Shown in pieces: positions 246 through 26,377 of a stretch of DNA of 26,415 nt; the stretch's first letter is position 1, and each line of letters starts with the position of its first letter. The notes under the pieces were generated by a model. It saw only the letters and a program-made list of their open reading frames with translations. It did not search any database and was not told where the DNA came from. The position numbers were made by a program, and so were the translations under genes. The DNA comes from a virus, in the IMG/VR virus record IMGVR_UViG_3300043411_000999, positions 1-26,415 of that record; one strand, written 5' to 3'.

Positions 246-284
246 TTAGGGGGCGTGGGTTACAGTCATTTTGGAGACTGTATG
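246..284 (+). promoter_or_regulatory. 5' leader: TTAGGGGG..GGGTTACA box plus hairpin with the SD in its loop (copy A)
   Basis: A box TTAGGGGGCGTGGGTTACA is followed at once by an inverted repeat, TACAGTC (261-267) and GACTGTA (276-282). The 8-base loop and the 3' arm carry the Shine-Dalgarno GGAG (273-276), and the ATG at 282 closes the stem. The same arrangement occurs near 21961-21997 on the minus strand and, more loosely, at 19743-19790. The stem would hide or expose the ribosome site, so translational control is a reasonable inference. Confidence 0.6.
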
Positions 285-965
285 CCTAATACTGATATTA
301 CCTATACACAAGATTCAACTGAAAAGATGAATATTAAAAAGGGTGGCCGCTTTGATTTTACCGATGCGGCGGGGATTGTCCAAGTTATTCAAGACAAAAC
401 TACCCTTCCCTTACCGAATATTGATCAATCCATAGGGCAAATAACTTATTCTTTTACCATTGAAGCAGACGGGCAAATAACTGGCTCTGGTGCAAACGCA
501 ATATCACGTGGATGGTGGTATGGATTGTTAGTGGATGTGCTTAAAAGTGGTAATGGGTCTGCTCATGCATTCACAGCCAACATTCAAATTGATCAATGCA
601 CAAACTATAATGAGGGTGGTGCATTTCAGGGACGTGTCACAAACATAGGTAGTCAAAATGCCTATGCTTCTTTTTCAGAAGGTATTGTTGATGATGGCGG
701 GTTCATTACACGGCTAACTGGCTTTGCTTCCAGGATTATTAAACGTGCAGCAACATCCTTGGCATATAATTTCTTTGCCAGTGCGGAAGGTACGCAGGTG
801 CTTGATGCAGTCCTTGCAGTACAGAATCCAAGTGGTTTGGGTTGGCGGCGCGGTATTGACTTTTCAAAGGGGCAATTCAGTGACGCGGCTATTGTCCTTA
901 AGCAAGGTCAAAAAATCAATTGGGTTAATGCAAATGGGCAAGTTATAAGAACACTTTCTTATTGA
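282..965 (+). CDS. Phage tail-fibre/appendage-like protein in a reverse-oriented cassette
   Basis: The protein has 227 residues. I place the start at ATG 282 (MPNTDITY) because GGAG lies five bases upstream; an in-frame GTG at 255 gives nine more residues but falls inside the leader box. The protein is rich in Gly, Ser, Asn and aromatics, with no signal peptide, membrane segment or catalytic motif that I recognise. Its C-terminus (GIDFSKGQFSDAAIVLKQGQKINW) resembles the beta-structured ends of phage fibre and appendage proteins, which is a family-level impression rather than a firm match. It lies on the strand opposite to all tail genes, just beside a fragment of the fibre-assembly-like gene, so it may be an alternative adhesin or a lysogenic-conversion (moron) gene. 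It has its own promoter and leader. Confidence 0.5.
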   Translation: MPNTDITYTQDSTEKMNIKKGGRFDFTDAAGIVQVIQDKTTLPLPNIDQSIGQITYSFTIEADGQITGSGANAISRGWWYGLLVDVLKSGNGSAHAFTANIQIDQCTNYNEGGAFQGRVTNIGSQNAYASFSEGIVDDGGFITRLTGFASRIIKRAATSLAYNFFASAEGTQVLDAVLAVQNPSGLGWRRGIDFSKGQFSDAAIVLKQGQKINWVNANGQVIRTLSY

Positions 966-988
966 CCAATACATACAATAGGTGGTAT

Positions 989-1021
989 GTTTTCACTCGC
1001 TTTATAAGCGAGGATTGAAAC
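989..1021 (+). other. Solitary CRISPR-repeat-like hairpin
   Basis: The 33-nt element begins GTTTTCA, has a 7-bp stem CTCGCTT/AAGCGAG around TAT (996-1012), and ends GATTGAAAC. A GTTT start, a central GC-containing stem and an ATTGAAAC 3' tag are the hallmarks of type I and some type III CRISPR repeats. No second copy occurs in the window and no cas gene is near, so it is not an array. Single phage-borne repeats are known to act as RNA anti-CRISPRs (Racrs). A weak extended -10-like promoter (TTGACC 962-967, 18-base spacer, TGGTATGTT) precedes it, but its start would fall inside the element. It could instead be an ordinary hairpin after the upstream gene, although no T-run follows. Confidence 0.45.
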
Positions 1022-1189: not shown

Positions 1190-1509
1190 ATGTCAATCAC
1201 AGTTAATTGTCCTCAGGTTTAATCACAACGCGTGGTCATGCAGAAAAGCGTGATAAAAAGTATAATAATGAGCAAGTTGAAATACCAATAAAACCGGTTA
1301 ATAAATGTATAGAAACAATTCGGTATTGTTATTTGGTTTTCTGTAGAAAGTGTGGTTGGGCAAAGCACATAATTCCAGCTAGAACGGAAGTATCTATTGG
1401 AGTGGCGATAATGAAGAAAGAAAGATGTGGCAATGGTTGTAGGGGGAAATTATATATACAGAATGCCAATGAAAAGAACACCTATGATCCAATTATGAAG
1501 GAAAAATAA
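1190..1509 (+). pseudogene. Zinc-ribbon protein, apparently frameshifted near its N-terminus
   Basis: An open frame from 1207 (only a TTG start, no ribosome site) encodes C-X2-C (CRKCGW) and about 25 residues later C-X3-C (CGNGC), a zinc-ribbon pattern, in a small basic protein. In another frame, ATG 1190 reads MSITVNCPQ and then hits TAA at 1220. Joining MSITVNCPQ to the downstream frame with four extra bases (TGTG after 1216) would give CPQCGLITTRGHAEK, a second zinc-finger half. I infer an original protein of about 107 residues with two Cys-pair modules that lost four bases, or a sequencing error. Small zinc-ribbon proteins of this kind (Ogr/Delta, Com) are regulators in other phages, but I cannot place this one in either family. 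Read as 1207-1509, it would be an intact 100-residue protein with a poor start. Confidence 0.45.
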
Positions 1510-1568: not shown

Positions 1569-1970
1569 TTAGGCACAACTGAAAATTTCACAGATAACAT
1601 AACCTCCCTTCTCCGGCAACCATCGTTGGGTATTGCTCATAATCTTTGAATCATCTTCAATAATGCCCATATCAACCAGGAAATCACTAATGCACTTTTC
1701 ATAGTTTGCGCAATCACGTTTTCTGTTAGCTTCCGGTGGGGCATATGAATAGACAACGTTCACATGGCCTTTGATATTAGCCCGTTTCTGCGTCCATAGG
1801 GAATCACTGGCCGCTTTATACCATTTCTTATTTACTTCCGTCTTCACGCGCCCAACTTTGGCATTATTGAAGGCTGAATTTACGGATGGCGGAATGGGAA
1901 TTTTTAATGTTACATCCGGCTTTCGCTCGTACCAACCAAAGACATTTTCACGCACACACTTACCACACAT
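1569..1970 (-). CDS. rusA: RusA-like Holliday junction resolvase, one catalytic Asp replaced
   Basis: RusA enzymes cut four-way DNA junctions as dimers, using clustered Asp residues and Mg2+. I choose ATG 1970 because it overlaps the Rz1 stop codon (TAATG) and gives 133 residues, close to the 120 of E. coli RusA. The domain is seen in IPIPPSVN (25-31), RKRDCANYEK (83-92) and GIIEDDSKI (102-110). Aligning D86, K92 and D107 with E. coli D70, K76 and D91 gives identical spacing, and puts Ala88 where E. coli has the essential Asp72. The protein may use another metal ligand, bind without cutting, or belong to a divergent branch. Its place as the last gene of the late operon, after the lysis genes, is unusual and suggests a role in clearing branched DNA for packaging. 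Confidence 0.85.
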   Translation of the reverse strand: MCGKCVRENVFGWYERKPDVTLKIPIPPSVNSAFNNAKVGRVKTEVNKKWYKAASDSLWTQKRANIKGHVNVVYSYAPPEANRKRDCANYEKCISDFLVDMGIIEDDSKIMSNTQRWLPEKGGYVICEIFSCA

Positions 1971-2224
1971 TATTTTGATTTTCGTTCCCACGCGGCAATC
2001 AACGCTTCTTGGCGGTGCTTGCACTGGTTATATTCCCCAATCGTATACCCAATGTATTCCAATAAATCATTGGGGTATGCCGGTTCCTGGATATAATCCA
2101 GGTCAGGGCACGGTGTACAGTAATCTGGTGGACAACTACTTGGTTGAGTCGTTAAATTCGTTGAGCGCACGCACCCCATCAATAGGTGCGGCACAATCAG
2201 TACCAATAGCCATTTTCTTTGCAT
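1970..2224 (-). CDS. Rz1: Rz1-like outer-membrane spanin lipoprotein
   Basis: The 84-residue protein starts at ATG 2224. It has a lipoprotein signal: a basic start (MQRKW), a hydrophobic stretch and the lipobox LMGC, with Cys18 as the lipidation site. The mature part is Pro/Cys-rich near its start. It begins inside the Rz gene in another frame and runs past its end, the overlapping layout typical of spanin pairs. The product would sit in the outer membrane and bridge to Rz to fuse the membranes at lysis. At 84 residues it is longer than lambda Rz1 (60). The stop overlaps the rusA start, which suggests coupled translation. Confidence 0.8.
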   Translation of the reverse strand: MQRKWLLVLIVPHLLMGCVRSTNLTTQPSSCPPDYCTPCPDLDYIQEPAYPNDLLEYIGYTIGEYNQCKHRQEALIAAWERKSK

Positions 2225-3517: not shown

Positions 3518-4306
3518 CTACGCCCCCAATAGAGCAACCAGTTCTTCAAATGTGTTCAGTTGTTCAACCATGGCTTCTATATCAACTGCATCAATTGCTT
3601 TGTATGCATTTGATGCAGTTTTTCGCATCTCTTCATCTTCAAGTCCTATTGCGACAAGCAAATCAGAACGACATTGTTTAAGGTCGTGCGCTTTTTTCTC
3701 ATTTAACATTGCTTTGGTGATTGTCTTTGCTTTATTAATGTCAATCTCAATCGCCTGGGCTGCCTCATTCCATACCCATGCATCACGGAATCTGTGATCA
3801 TCCGGCAATACTGGATCATAACCAATAAGCACCCAGTCTTTGCCTATTGCGCCCATGTCTATCAATTCATTGCGGTGATATTCTGCCGTATATAAGGGAG
3901 TTTCAATTTCAAAGACCTTACTTTGAAGTGGTTTTTGCCACAGAACAATGCTCTTCTCTTTATCTACATGAAACCCAACCAGCATATGATTTTCTGGCAC
4001 TTGTGGGTTTTCTCCTTCTTTCATATCCTTAGCTACCGCTGCAATATCAAACGCAGGATCAACTTCACCATCAATAAGAGGGGTTTGCATTTGAATACTT
4101 AAAACAGAAATAGTAGATTGAAATATAAATCTTGATATTGGTAAAGCTATATCAATCTTTGCTATTTTATAATCTTCCGTAATCTGTTGATTTTCATAGA
4201 ATTTATCCACAAAATCTTGTTGATTGAATTTTGGATGAATTTGTCCATCAACAAAGAAAATAAAATCCAAGCTCCCGTCTGGCTTTTTGTGAACGATATT
4301 AACCAT
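3518..4306 (-). CDS. Tail-fibre-assembly-like protein
   Basis: The 262-residue protein follows the two tail fibre genes and has a strong ribosome site (AAAGGAG before ATG 4306). Its C-terminal half contains DHRFRDAWVWN (about 169-179) followed by NKAKTITKAMLNEKK and a helical tail. This resembles the D(H/R)xFRxAW...NMxKAxxIxxxxxR region of small phage tail proteins found after fibre genes. The likely role is chaperone or accessory for fibre assembly. The N-terminal 120 residues are unrecognised. Residues about 128-170 are duplicated exactly at the left edge of the window. Confidence 0.55.
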   Translation of the reverse strand: MVNIVHKKPDGSLDFIFFVDGQIHPKFNQQDFVDKFYENQQITEDYKIAKIDIALPISRFIFQSTISVLSIQMQTPLIDGEVDPAFDIAAVAKDMKEGENPQVPENHMLVGFHVDKEKSIVLWQKPLQSKVFEIETPLYTAEYHRNELIDMGAIGKDWVLIGYDPVLPDDHRFRDAWVWNEAAQAIEIDINKAKTITKAMLNEKKAHDLKQCRSDLLVAIGLEDEEMRKTASNAYKAIDAVDIEAMVEQLNTFEELVALLGA

Positions 4307-4323: not shown

Positions 4324-5655
4324 TTACCAAACATAAACAATAACCTGGCCGTTAGCACCTGCACCAGAATTTCCAGTTTCTGATCCACCACCACCGCCGC
4401 CTGGTATAGTGCCAGCCGTTGCATTATTTGCATCATATCCACCTGCACCACCATTCCCACCTGCAATACTAGCACCACCAGCAGCCCCACCGGTAGCTTC
4501 CGCACCACCGCCGCCGCCGCCGCCGCCATTCATAGCTCTTCCGCCAACACCAACAGTATTTTGTCCAAGAGTATCACCGCCGCCACCGCCACCACCGGCA
4601 TTAGTACCGCCATCACCACCGGCAGTTGGCGGGTTGCCTCCATTACCACCCCCAGTACTACCACCTGAAACAGCCGCGCCGCCTGTAGCAGAAGTAGAAC
4701 TTGTACCAGCAAGAAAAGCACTCCCACCAGCTCCACCACCGCCACCGGATGCATTAGTGCCGCCGCCGCCGCCGCCATAAGCCGTTAACCAGCTTCCAAA
4801 AGTTGTATTTCCCCCCGCATCACCATTAGTTGATGCACCGGTTTTGGCTGCACCCCCAGTTCCGACTGTTACTGTTTCAGTTGATCCCAAACTACTTAAC
4901 AAGATGAATCTCTCATTAAATCCGCCACCGCCGCCGCCGCCGCCTGGCTGTGCTGTAGTGCCCCTACCACCACTGCCTCCGGCTCCCCATGCTTGAATAA
5001 ATGCAAAAGTTCCGAAAGCTGGCTTAGTCCATGTGCCACTAGATGTAAATGCTTGTCGATCCACAAAAGATGCAACTGCACCGCTCTTGCGTAATGTTCC
5101 AGTGAAATTGATATCCCCTGTTACGTCTAATTTATAGCTGGGCGTGCCACCTATCCCCACATTTCCACTGCTATCAACAGTTAGTTTGGTTGCGCCATCT
5201 ATTGTTATGGTTACTGATCCACTACCGGTATCTGTAACAGTAACATTACTATTTCCCTGACTTATCGATGAAACAACCGGCACATAGGCTGATCCGCTTT
5301 GGCGTAAAGTACCTGTAAAGTTAATATCGCCTGTTACATCAAGATGATAGCCAGGCGAAGTATTATTTATACCCACATATCCACTGCTATTGACCGTTAC
5401 TTTAACAGCATTATTAACATAAATTTCATGTTTGCTGGAATCGGCAAGTGGGCCTATTGTTACCCATGCGCTATTTGCACTATTACGAATTTTTAGAAGG
5501 CCAAGCGTTGTGTCATACCACAACATGTAAGCATAAGTTGTTGATGGTGCTGTTAAGCCACTATTGTGAGTCACCACAGCCGTTAACACAGTATTTAAAT
5601 CACTTCTAAACGATGCCCCCTGTTGATTGGCAATATCATAATCATGCTGTGACAT
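4324..5655 (-). CDS. Tail fibre with glycine-rich (polyglycine) receptor-binding domain
   Basis: The 443-residue protein has three parts. Residues 1-125 are a close paralogue of the start of the next fibre gene (MSQHDYDIANQQGASFRSDLN). Residues about 85-195 hold two copies of a module, VNSSGYVGIN...LDVTGDINFTGTLRQSG then VDSSGNVGIG...LDVTGDINFTGTLRKSG. From about 200 on, a Gly-rich domain carries about ten runs of 4-8 glycines and ends GQVIVYVW. Such domains pack as polyglycine-II sheets in phage adhesins (as in gp38 of T-even-like phages), with variable loops touching the receptor. The Gly runs are coded by perfect GGC repeats, up to six in a row, prone to in-frame slippage. Long proline-rich frames on the other strand here are shadows. 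Confidence 0.85.
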   Translation of the reverse strand: MSQHDYDIANQQGASFRSDLNTVLTAVVTHNSGLTAPSTTYAYMLWYDTTLGLLKIRNSANSAWVTIGPLADSSKHEIYVNNAVKVTVNSSGYVGINNTSPGYHLDVTGDINFTGTLRQSGSAYVPVVSSISQGNSNVTVTDTGSGSVTITIDGATKLTVDSSGNVGIGGTPSYKLDVTGDINFTGTLRKSGAVASFVDRQAFTSSGTWTKPAFGTFAFIQAWGAGGSGGRGTTAQPGGGGGGGGFNERFILLSSLGSTETVTVGTGGAAKTGASTNGDAGGNTTFGSWLTAYGGGGGGTNASGGGGGAGGSAFLAGTSSTSATGGAAVSGGSTGGGNGGNPPTAGGDGGTNAGGGGGGGDTLGQNTVGVGGRAMNGGGGGGGGAEATGGAAGGASIAGGNGGAGGYDANNATAGTIPGGGGGGSETGNSGAGANGQVIVYVW

Positions 5656-5658
5656 ATT

Positions 5659-6744
5659 TTAGGCTCCCAAAATAGATAATGCAAGATTGGTAATTGGTGA
5701 ATTTAATGAACCGGTTCCATTCTGTAATACGATTTCTATGTAGCTAGTGGTTAAGCTGTTTATTAATACAATTGGAGCTTTAGAGCTAACATATGATATC
5801 ATTGCTGATGGACAATATTTATTATCATTCATTGCATTAGTAAAATATATTCTATAAGTATTTGAACTTGGATTCGTAACAGAAGAAACATTAAAACTAT
5901 CGTTTATAACTAATCCACCAAATGCGAAACCGTCTGAAAAATTAACCCACGCCTTTGGCACATTCTTGGCAACAGGGTATTTGCCACTGGCAAATGTCAG
6001 TGTTCCATCACTGTTCTTTAATCGGCAAGTTTCAACTGCTCCCGTTCCAAGGACTATATCCACGCCATTTGATGTATAAATAAAGGCTGTGCCATTAATC
6101 GCAGCCTGATAATCGGATCCACTATCATTTGAGCCAAGTTTTAAATAGGTTCCAGTATTGCCTATGGCAAGCATATTTAATGCTGTAGAACTTTTCGTTA
6201 TCGTGGCTATCGCATTGGTAACAGGACTTGTGGTGTTCAACAGAAACTCACCTGCATTTGAAACACGCATCCGTTCTGTTCCATCAACGGTAACAGTCAT
6301 AACCCCATTGCTTCCGCTGTCGCTTACTTCAACGCTGGTGTTCCCCTCTGATATACTATCAGGGGCGGCGGTAAATGCTGTGCCATTTTGGCGCAAAGTT
6401 CCCGTAAAGTTTATGTCACCATTTACATCAAGGTGATAGCTTGGCGTGGTATCGTTGATACCCATATAACCACTGCTATTAACGGTTACCTTAACGGCAT
6501 TACTTACGTATATTTCATGTTTGCTTGAATCGGCAAGTGGGCCTATTGTCACCCACGCGTTATTTGCACCATTACGAATTTTCAGAAGATTAAGTGTTGT
6601 GTCATACCACAACATATAAGCAACTGTAGTTGTTGGCGCGGTAGTACCACTATTATTGGATACAACGGCTGCCAATGCATCGTTCAGATCACTTCTAAAC
6701 GGCGCACCAGCTTGGTTAGATAAAACATAATCGTGCTGAGCCAA
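5659..6744 (-). CDS. Tail fibre (paralogue of the next gene)
   Basis: The 361-residue protein starts MAQHDYVLSNQAGAPFRSDLN. Its first 125 residues are nearly the same as those of the fibre at 4324-5655, including WYDTT, IGPLADSSKHEIYV and LDV.GDINFTGTLRQ.G. After that it diverges: there is no polyglycine domain, but a Ser/Asn/Thr-rich beta region ending LALSILGA. The shared start probably binds the same tail site, and the different ends would meet different receptors. It lies 12 bases after gene J and 3 before the paralogue. Confidence 0.8.
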   Translation of the reverse strand: MAQHDYVLSNQAGAPFRSDLNDALAAVVSNNSGTTAPTTTVAYMLWYDTTLNLLKIRNGANNAWVTIGPLADSSKHEIYVSNAVKVTVNSSGYMGINDTTPSYHLDVNGDINFTGTLRQNGTAFTAAPDSISEGNTSVEVSDSGSNGVMTVTVDGTERMRVSNAGEFLLNTTSPVTNAIATITKSSTALNMLAIGNTGTYLKLGSNDSGSDYQAAINGTAFIYTSNGVDIVLGTGAVETCRLKNSDGTLTFASGKYPVAKNVPKAWVNFSDGFAFGGLVINDSFNVSSVTNPSSNTYRIYFTNAMNDNKYCPSAMISYVSSKAPIVLINSLTTSYIEIVLQNGTGSLNSPITNLALSILGA

Positions 6745-22051: not shown

Positions 22052-22489
22052 ATGGATTTTCCAGTAATTAATATAAAAGATAAGAATATATCTTTCTCAA
22101 AAATAACTATTGAGGAATATAAATTACATTTCGATCAGTATACAAAAGAGATTCTTTCCATAATCGGAATTAGTCGTAAAGATTTTCAGCATCTTTACCA
22201 CGAAATAGAACACAGCACATTTAAGATTAAAAAGAGTAATAAGACTATCGGATTTGCCCTATTTAGCGATAGACATCCTGATGTAGTTCATCCACGGATT
22301 TATTTAGGTTTTATTTTCATAAAACCGCGTTACCGCCGCATGGGATACGGTAGCTTCTTGTTTAAGGCATGTGAGCATTATGCAAAATTAAATGGTTATA
22401 CCGATATACATTTGGATTTTGACCGAACGGATCCTGTTGCTTTTAAATTTTATAAAAAAGTTTTGCCAAATCATAATCTTTTAAACTAA
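22052..22489 (+). CDS. GNAT-family N-acetyltransferase
   Basis: The 145-residue protein has the acetyl-CoA binding motif A, IKPRYRRMGYGSFLFKACEHYAK (about 90-112), with the R-x-x-G-x-G core at RRMGYG, preceded by strand IYLGFIFI and followed by a motif-B-like AFKFYKKV (130-137). GNAT enzymes move acetyl groups to amines of small molecules or proteins; the substrate cannot be told from sequence. AAGGG lies upstream of the ATG. It is the only plus-strand gene in the packaging/head region, visibly richer in A+T (Lys, Ile, Phe codons), and flanked by its own promoter and a hairpin. This is the picture of a moron acquired by transfer. It could modify a host target, for example for defence evasion, but that is conjecture. 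Confidence 0.85.
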   Translation: MDFPVINIKDKNISFSKITIEEYKLHFDQYTKEILSIIGISRKDFQHLYHEIEHSTFKIKKSNKTIGFALFSDRHPDVVHPRIYLGFIFIKPRYRRMGYGSFLFKACEHYAKLNGYTDIHLDFDRTDPVAFKFYKKVLPNHNLLN

Positions 22490-24539: not shown

Positions 24540-25082
24540 CTAAAATGCGAGAAGATCCAACACTTTTCTAATCTCATTTGAGATCTTAGAGTGTACCTCT
24601 TCCGCCGTCTTGACCCCCACCAATTCAGCCGCTATCCGATCTGGTATACCAATTAAATTGTCCCTTATCGATCTTGCAAGTTTAAACGCCTCATTTTTAA
24701 CATCCTCAGCATTTACCAGTTTCTTAACTTTTTCCTCATACTCCAACTTGGAAAGTCTCGCTAAATAGGCCTCTTTAATTGCCCTTGATTCAGCTATGGA
24801 TGGTGCGTTATTTCTCCGCATTTCCAATGTTTGATTTTCTAACCTGTCGTAATCATCGTTATTACTCTCATTGTTTTTGCCTTTTTTATTCAAGACTTTC
24901 GTGGGATCGGTATTGCGCTTCCATTCATTGTTAGCAATAAGTGGATCAATAAATACTTTTCCTTTTTCATCCTTTGTTACAGCATTTTTTAAGCGACCAT
25001 GTTTTATTGCAAGCTGTACCGCAGTATGCGATACCTGACGTAAGCGAGCATATTCGCTTACTGAGACCTTCTTGTTTGACAT
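24540..25082 (-). CDS. terS: Terminase small subunit, Nu1-like
   Basis: The 180 residues match lambda gpNu1 (181). The start MSNKKVSVSEYARLRQVSHTAVQLAIKHGRL is a winged helix-turn-helix for DNA recognition. A Ser/Asn-rich linker and a charged helical part (about 95-140, AYLARLSKLEYEEKVKKLV) follow, typical of Nu1 oligomerisation. The start overlaps the methyltransferase end by 25 bases, and the stop is just before terL. Confidence 0.85.
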   Translation of the reverse strand: MSNKKVSVSEYARLRQVSHTAVQLAIKHGRLKNAVTKDEKGKVFIDPLIANNEWKRNTDPTKVLNKKGKNNESNNDDYDRLENQTLEMRRNNAPSIAESRAIKEAYLARLSKLEYEEKVKKLVNAEDVKNEAFKLARSIRDNLIGIPDRIAAELVGVKTAEEVHSKISNEIRKVLDLLAF

Positions 25083-26305
25083 AAATCATTATATCCCTTA
25101 CCAGTAGCCTCATGTATGGCTTTTTTGCCAGTAAACTGCTCCCATCTTGCAACAATCGTGTCGCAAAAAACTGGATCCAATTCCATTAAATACGCGTGCC
25201 GATTATTTTTCTCACAAGCTATTAATGTTGAGCCAGATCCACCAAAGCAATCGGCAATTATATCTCCTTCTTTTGAGCTATTGATAAGAGCACGTTCGAT
25301 AAGTTCAACCGGTTTTTGAGTGGGATGCACATAATCCGCCGTATTACCTCGGCTCATTGTCCATACATCTGATTGGCTTCTGTCGCCATACCAAGCCGCG
25401 CCCTTGCAGTAAAAAATAAATTCATGCTGAGGACGGTACTGTTGTTGACCCAGTCCCATGCTCCCCTTATTCCATACAATGCAAGCCGCTATGTTAATCC
25501 CAATATTTTCTAATGCTGCTTGAAATTCTGAGTATGTCCGCCACGGAAAGCATATATAACTTGCGGCTCCTGTTTTAGAGTATTTTTTCAAATTCGCAAG
25601 GGCCTGTTCTATTAATCTCACCAAATCATCTTGTTTCTTATCGTCATTTTTAATCATGGAGAATCCTTTCTTTGAACGCCCCCCCCCATAACTCATCCCA
25701 TATGGTGGGTCTGTAAATATAAGATCCGCCCTTTGTCCATTAAACAATTTCTCAATATCCTCCGGAATCGTGCTATCACCACACATTAATCGGTGTTTTC
25801 CTAATATCCAAACATCTCCGATGACAGAAACCGGTGGCCCTTCAATAACTTCCGGAACTTCATCCTCCCCGTCATTTGATAACTCTGATTCAATGTCAGG
25901 TAATAGATCGGCCAACTCTTCATCTGAAAAACCAATCAACGATAAATCAAAATCAAGGTCTCTTAAATCACCAAGTTCTAATGCCAGCAATTCATTGTCC
26001 CAGCCGGCATTTAAAGCCAGTTGATTATCGGCAATGATATAGGCCCTTCTTTGTTCTGAGTTAAGGTGCGATAAAATAAGCACTGGTACTTCTTTCATAC
26101 CTATCTTTTGGGCGGCCATAAGGCGGCCATGACCAGCAATGATTTCATCGTCATCACCTATCAGGATTGGGTTGTTAAATCCAAACTCCTGAATAGATTT
26201 TGCTATCTGATTAATCTGCTCTTCGCTGTGTGTTCTCGCATTTCTCTCATATTTTTTCAAACTTGCAACTTTTCGAGTTGCAACTTGGCCGACTTGCAAA
26301 TGCAT
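25058..26305 (-). CDS. ParB-domain DNA methyltransferase (beta class, N6-adenine or N4-cytosine)
   Basis: I start at ATG 26305, preceded by GGGGGGAG; the frame is open to a TTG at 26377. The 415 residues hold a ParB/Srx-like domain (1-100) with the motif GHGR (58-61). An acidic linker (about 128-156) follows, then a methyltransferase with motif IV DPPY (199-202) before motif I FGGSGS (354-359), the beta-class order. ParB-methyltransferase proteins often sit beside terminase genes in phages and are thought to protect phage DNA from restriction or mark packaging sites. No partner endonuclease is visible in the window, so it looks like an orphan. Confidence 0.9.
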   Translation of the reverse strand: MHLQVGQVATRKVASLKKYERNARTHSEEQINQIAKSIQEFGFNNPILIGDDDEIIAGHGRLMAAQKIGMKEVPVLILSHLNSEQRRAYIIADNQLALNAGWDNELLALELGDLRDLDFDLSLIGFSDEELADLLPDIESELSNDGEDEVPEVIEGPPVSVIGDVWILGKHRLMCGDSTIPEDIEKLFNGQRADLIFTDPPYGMSYGGGRSKKGFSMIKNDDKKQDDLVRLIEQALANLKKYSKTGAASYICFPWRTYSEFQAALENIGINIAACIVWNKGSMGLGQQQYRPQHEFIFYCKGAAWYGDRSQSDVWTMSRGNTADYVHPTQKPVELIERALINSSKEGDIIADCFGGSGSTLIACEKNNRHAYLMELDPVFCDTIVARWEQFTGKKAIHEATGKGYNDLCQTRRSQ

Positions 26306-26377
26306 ATCTCCCCCCGGAAAACCAATAAAATCAAGACCCCCAGGGATAATCTTATCGCACTTGCAAGTCAGTTGCAA
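26263..26377. repeat. Cluster of five TTGCAA palindromes around the methyltransferase start
   Basis: TTGCAA occurs at 26263, 26278, 26294, 26361 and 26372. Three copies are spaced 15-16 bases inside the gene start, and two are in a tandem 11-bp repeat TTGCAAGTCAG (26361-26382) upstream. Elsewhere in the window I noticed only scattered copies. The layout fits repeated binding sites, for example an operator or a packaging-related site. Confidence 0.5.

Follow-up and report, generated by a model that had tools for sequence, protein, structure and literature searches.

Solitary repeat units (SRUs) and the RNA anti-CRISPRs (Racrs) RacrIF1 and RacrIC1 are single, repeat-shaped and hairpin-forming sequences situated between genes in phages without cas genes (Camara-Wilpert et al. 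2023, PMC10651486). Under the definition used by SRUFinder, an SRU covers 90% or more of a known CRISPR repeat at an identity of at least 90%, and a search including IMG/VR3 yielded 2,103 viral SRUs (PMC10651486). RacrIC1 is located 11 nt behind acrIC5, in a bicistronic arrangement (PMC10651486). Phages are also known to carry CRISPR mini-arrays, the repeats of which are described as identical to those of the host (PMC11656645). Among CRISPR repeats, many of types I and III carry ATTGAAAC as a general tag (PMC8482600), the type I-B and I-C repeats of Thermus end in GAGGATTGAAAC (PMC6452258), and the repeat of Geobacter metallireducens has the 3' end GCGAGGATTGAAAC (PMC2700814).

An element resembling these repeats is present in IMG/VR virus record IMGVR_UViG_3300043411_000999, analysed here over its whole length of 26,415 bases (the window). 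The late genes of a lambda-like phage lie on the minus strand of the window, and the host of this phage is probably Gram-negative. The large terminase is about 51% identical to those of Wolbachia phage WO and Acidithiobacillus phage AcaML1, and at most 59% identical to its IMG/VR relatives over most of its length (higher only in short, cut-off matches). The element itself is located in a plus-strand stretch at the left end of the window, between two orphan ORFs, and the features of this stretch are as follows:

282 to 965, plus strand: orphan ORF of 227 aa, starting at ATG 282 behind a GGAG (255-965 in the ORF list, with a GTG start)
962 to 991, plus strand: promoter-like site TTGACC-18-TATGTT with extended -10 (TG before the -10 box), a consensus match only
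989 to 1021, plus strand: solitary CRISPR-repeat-like element of 33 nt, GTTTTCA, then CTCGCTT TAT AAGCGAG, then GATTGAAAC, read directly (fold z -3.9)
996 to 1012, no strand assigned: perfect 7-bp inverted repeat with a 3-nt centre, a hairpin as RNA and a 17-bp palindrome as DNA
1008 to 1021, plus strand: GCGAGGATTGAAAC, the last 14 nt of the element, identical to the 3' ends of type I-C repeats and to the end of the Rfam CRISPR-DR9 consensus
1207 to 1509, plus strand: orphan ORF 185 nt downstream of the element, starting with TTG and showing a zinc-ribbon-like pattern (CxxC / CxxxC), with a low-confidence fold
1518 to 1551, no strand assigned: inverted repeat between the convergent ORF ends of 1207-1509 (+) and 1569-2024 (-), a possible bidirectional terminator

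The 33-mer GTTTTCACTCGCTTTATAAGCGAGGATTGAAAC is found exactly at 989-1021 (+), with stem arms CTCGCTT (996-1002) and AAGCGAG (1006-1012) enclosing a TAT loop. The initial annotation had given sequence, coordinates and stem exactly, and both the CRISPR-repeat shape and the 3' ATTGAAAC tag that it described are real. As RNA, the 33-mer is predicted to fold into the 7-bp stem, the 3-nt loop and paired ends at -10.2 kcal/mol, and only 1 of 200 shuffles folded equally well. A Racr would have a hairpin like that of its cognate repeat; the element does form a hairpin (z -3.9), but a cognate repeat with which to compare it was not found among the genomes searched. Its position is intergenic, between an ORF stop at 965 and an ORF start at 1207. 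It is also solitary, as had been claimed: no second copy at three or fewer mismatches exists elsewhere in the 26,415-base record, no degenerate partner lies within 150 nt on either side, and no second full or partial repeat lies within 100 bp (best ungapped flank similarity 16/33). The element therefore lacks the two or more repeats with a spacer that make a CRISPR mini-array. The palindrome CTCGCTT-TAT-AAGCGAG likewise has no further match at three or fewer mismatches in the record. Owing to the absence of a T run 3' of the stem on either strand, the element is not an intrinsic terminator, and it is not among the four sites of an intrinsic-terminator scan. The adjoining interval 1022-1206 has a predicted fold slightly more stable than those of shuffles (z -1.8), and it contains an 8-bp GGGGGAAG/CTTCCCCC hairpin; no Rfam family matches it at gathering score.

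The closest likeness to characterised repeats resides in the 3' end. The CRISPR-DR9 alignment marks GCGAGGATTGAAAC as a genuine repeat end, and the 14-mer occurs in 36 copies in one Nitrosomonas genome, in an array with the 37-nt repeat GTAGCGCCCGGCCCCAAAGCCGGGCGAGGATTGAAAC. In this MAG (L186, 7154-8200 and beyond), the array adjoins ORFs resembling a type I-C cas operon; from their translations, the upstream ORFs read like Cas5, Cas8c, Cas7, Cas4, Cas1 and Cas2, a type I-C set. The Nitrosomonas type I-C and G. metallireducens repeats share with the element these last 14 nt, a stem and a ATTGAAAC-type handle, but they are 37 nt long rather than 33 nt, begin with GTAGCGCC where the element has GTTTTCAC, and align to it at 62-66% identity. 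Their G+C-rich stems of 8-9 bp end before AGGATTGAAAC, whereas that of the element continues two pairs further. The Thermus type I-B repeat GTTGCAAACCYCGTYAGCCTCGTAGAGGATTGAAAC (PMC6452258) has the 3' end GAGGATTGAAAC in common with the element, but is 36 nt long with another core and 5' half, and aligns at 62% identity. Across the real repeats sharing the 3' end, whole-element identity is 58-66%, which is within the range of shuffled-core versions. No Rfam family matches the element at gathering score; CRISPR-DR2 and CRISPR-DR9 match weakly, at 17.3 and 14.8 bits versus gathering scores of 37 and 45, respectively. The best identity to the known repeats compared is 66%, versus the 90% of the SRU definition. 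On the similarity test that defines SRUs, as far as it could run, the claim that the element is a Racr or SRU fails.

A comparison with the CRISPR repeats of bacterial genomes, proposed in the initial annotation, returned no similar full repeat in any array searched. Among 84,980 species genomes (GTDB), no array has a repeat of the form GTTTTCAC-N13-17-GGATTGAAAC; the pattern gave 49 single matches, near the chance number, and not one of them lay in an array or had such a stem. A stem-constrained pattern found no match in the GTDB species genomes. Since the full scan demanded exact ends, it could miss repeats that differ at two or three positions, its estimated catch of these being about 20% and 8%, respectively. 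At three or fewer mismatches, the 33-mer was absent from four genome samples (n = 11, 369, 289 and 250; about 900 sampled proteobacterial genomes). A looser gapped pattern produced only scattered singles and type I-C repeats in 398 Proteobacteria, and the type I-C matches were rejected because GTTTT at the spacer end mimics the pattern.

Virus collections gave a similar picture. The exact 33-mer is absent from IMG/VR, and neither exact nor end-anchored patterns recovered a related solitary repeat there. The 15 pattern matches comprised coding DNA in the one case checked for ORFs (L165), with the rest being clusters of homologous sequence or lacking the stem; in one of these searches, most of the eleven matches were apparently homologous related stretches. 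By blastn against plasmids and phages, the best matches had E values of 2 or more. The question of conservation in related phages, also raised in the initial annotation, was answered in the negative, with none seen to keep the element in the IMG/VR and phage searches.

The frequency of such a layout by chance was estimated with a first-order Markov model of the window. The expectation per window is 1.2e-4 for a ATTGAAAC tag with a perfect stem of at least 7 bp and GTTT upstream, and 4.9e-4 with stems of at least 6 bp; looser 5' rules raise it to 1.8e-3, all of these figures being for a layout defined after it was seen, in a first-stage scan that covers thousands of windows. The CRISPR-like layout is rare by chance in any one window, yet it is expected as an occasional coincidence across thousands. 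Inverted repeats of 7 bp are frequent here, with five exact ones in 1.9 kb. No further instance of TTGAAAC following a stem of 6 bp or longer turned up in about 0.73 Mb of relatives' DNA. By a rough estimate, with the 2,103 reported viral SRUs in view, real but unmatched SRUs occur at a rate similar to that of chance layouts, and thus chance alone is not decisive for the element.

The surrounding genes were also compared with the claim of a typical anti-defence neighbourhood, which they do not bear out. On the other side of the element are RusA, spanin-like, amidase and tail genes (Pfam, PHROGs), and its neighbours are lysis and tail genes with the two orphan ORFs. No known anti-defence or acr relative was found near the element among ten left-end ORFs searched by Pfam and PHROGs and five by PADLOC. 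The reported absence of cas genes holds for these same scanned ORFs, and the ORFs of the window resemble structural, lysis and packaging genes of phages. For the 227-aa ORF, ORF 1207-1509 and gene 3518-4306, Pfam, PHROGs, PADLOC and a phage collection yielded no significant relatives, nor did IMG/VR yield any for the two orphan ORFs (282-965 and 1207-1509). Single-sequence AlphaFold was uninformative for the 227-aa ORF, the mean pLDDT of the two flanking ORFs being 34 and 51. A further possibility, a diversity-generating-retroelement hairpin following a variable gene, was set aside: inspection by eye reveals no C-type-lectin variable region at the C-terminus of the 227-aa ORF, and a reverse transcriptase was likewise not recognised anywhere in the window.

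Several other features of the record merit description. Window bases 1-127 are an exact repeat of 3798-3924. Assemblers often use a k-mer length of 127, so that the left end is probably either a breakpoint in the assembly graph or a duplication collapsed within gene 3518-4306; caution is needed with joins across 127/128. On the minus strand of 128-185, the reading frame of gene 3518-4306 is, by eye, carried on for about 20 codons (TLHITYASLRRQLPHFVSGE) and then stops, as though another version of that gene had once been present. The adjacent tail-fibre-like genes 4324-5655 and 5659-6744 (-) have related N-terminal parts (both phrog_29834) and differing C-terminal parts, one of which is glycine-rich. 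A lone plus-strand ORF at 22052-22489, which reads like a GNAT acetyltransferase, adjoins the terminase gene among the minus-strand late genes and is a possible moron. Near the right end, the ORF at 25058-26377 (-) resembles a fusion of a ParB-type domain with a DNA methyltransferase (DPPYG motif).

What the element does may be approached through its transcription. The initial annotation had given it a promoter of its own, which was not confirmed: the -10 box of the 962-991 site overlaps the first bases of the element, and promoter-like sites are not commoner in the region than in shuffles (15 vs 12 +/- 2.7). With the predicted start at about 998, inside the stem, a transcript from this site would not include the whole repeat. 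Accordingly, the site cannot serve a Racr, although read-through from the upstream ORF could. The same geometry, with the palindrome at about -2 to +15 of the TTGACC-18-TATGTT site, would suit a DNA operator for a repressor or activator at the start of this promoter, controlling ORF 1207-1509, and the length and centre of the palindrome are appropriate for a helix-turn-helix dimer site. Such an operator is nonetheless unlikely and a minor rival, given a promoter match no better than shuffles, no second operator-like copy in the record, and a presumed target that has a TTG start and no relatives found; the GTTTTC and ATTGAAAC ends would also be left unexplained. The remnant of a phage mini-array that has lost its second repeat and spacer is a very improbable origin. 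Such arrays are known in phages and the layout is CRISPR-like, but no degenerate second copy persists within 150 nt (best 16/33) and no array with an identical repeat was found in the genomes searched.

The two main contenders both place the element on the mRNA of the 227-aa ORF. An ordinary intergenic stem-loop, with CRISPR-like ends by coincidence, is the favoured reading at slightly under even confidence, and is somewhat likelier than a Racr. Here a short stem-loop would form the 3' end of the mRNA, where the untranslated hairpin may slow exonucleases or mark a processed or Rho-dependent end, and the resemblance of the GTTTTC and ATTGAAAC ends to a CRISPR repeat would be fortuitous. The element begins 23 nt past the stop of this predicted ORF, the usual position of a 3' stem-loop. 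The failure to find a matching repeat form in an array of the 84,980 genomes, a 33-mer copy in the four genome samples or a related solitary repeat in IMG/VR argues for the ordinary stem-loop, as do the shuffled-core level of identity to repeats sharing the 3' end and the abundance of 7-bp inverted repeats in the region. It accounts less readily for the full layout of GTTTT start, centred 7-bp stem, GATTGAAAC end and 33-nt length, at only about 1e-4 per window, for the two Rfam CRISPR models that match, albeit far under their gathering scores, and for an intergenic position that is itself required of SRUs. Alternatively, the element would be an SRU transcribed as the tail of the same mRNA, and its RNA would be bound as a crRNA by host Cas6 (Cas5 if type I-C) and the backbone protein Cas7, holding Cas subunits in a dead complex. 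In favour of this Racr reading are the CRISPR-like ends, stem and length, the solitary and intergenic placement, and a 3' end of 14 nt equal to genuine type I-C repeat ends. A repeat just behind a small phage ORF is also a known layout, shared with RacrIC1 (PMC10651486). Unlike Racrs and SRUs (PMC10651486), however, the element has no CRISPR repeat of at least 90% identity among those searched (at most 66% for repeats sharing its 3' end), no known acr neighbour or anti-defence relative nearby and no promoter site upstream of the repeat. Nor was a matching repeat seen in any array searched or conservation in related phages, and type I-C stems stop two pairs short, before AGGATTGAAAC. The Racr proposed in the initial annotation therefore stands in its shape, ATTGAAAC tag, solitary and intergenic state and I-C-like 3' end, and falls short in its matching repeat, promoter and neighbourhood. 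Because divergent repeats were only sampled, and the array of the phage's own host may lie outside the genomes searched, action like a Racr is still a plausible, if minority, reading. A Racr at a phage mRNA end against a CRISPR subtype variant with a 33-nt repeat of the form GTTTTCA-stem-GATTGAAAC, absent from the sampled genomes, is more doubtful.

If the element is not a Racr, it illustrates that phage intergenic DNA can give rise to a CRISPR-like hairpin by chance, and that a solitary repeat unit should be named only once it has been matched to a repeat in a real array. If it is a Racr, it would be one more phage-borne decoy in a class already numbering thousands, and a hint that the 85,000 species genomes searched lack a CRISPR repeat family. 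In its 33-nt-repeat form, such a Racr would indicate a repeat family not yet catalogued, in a Gram-negative host not yet sampled.
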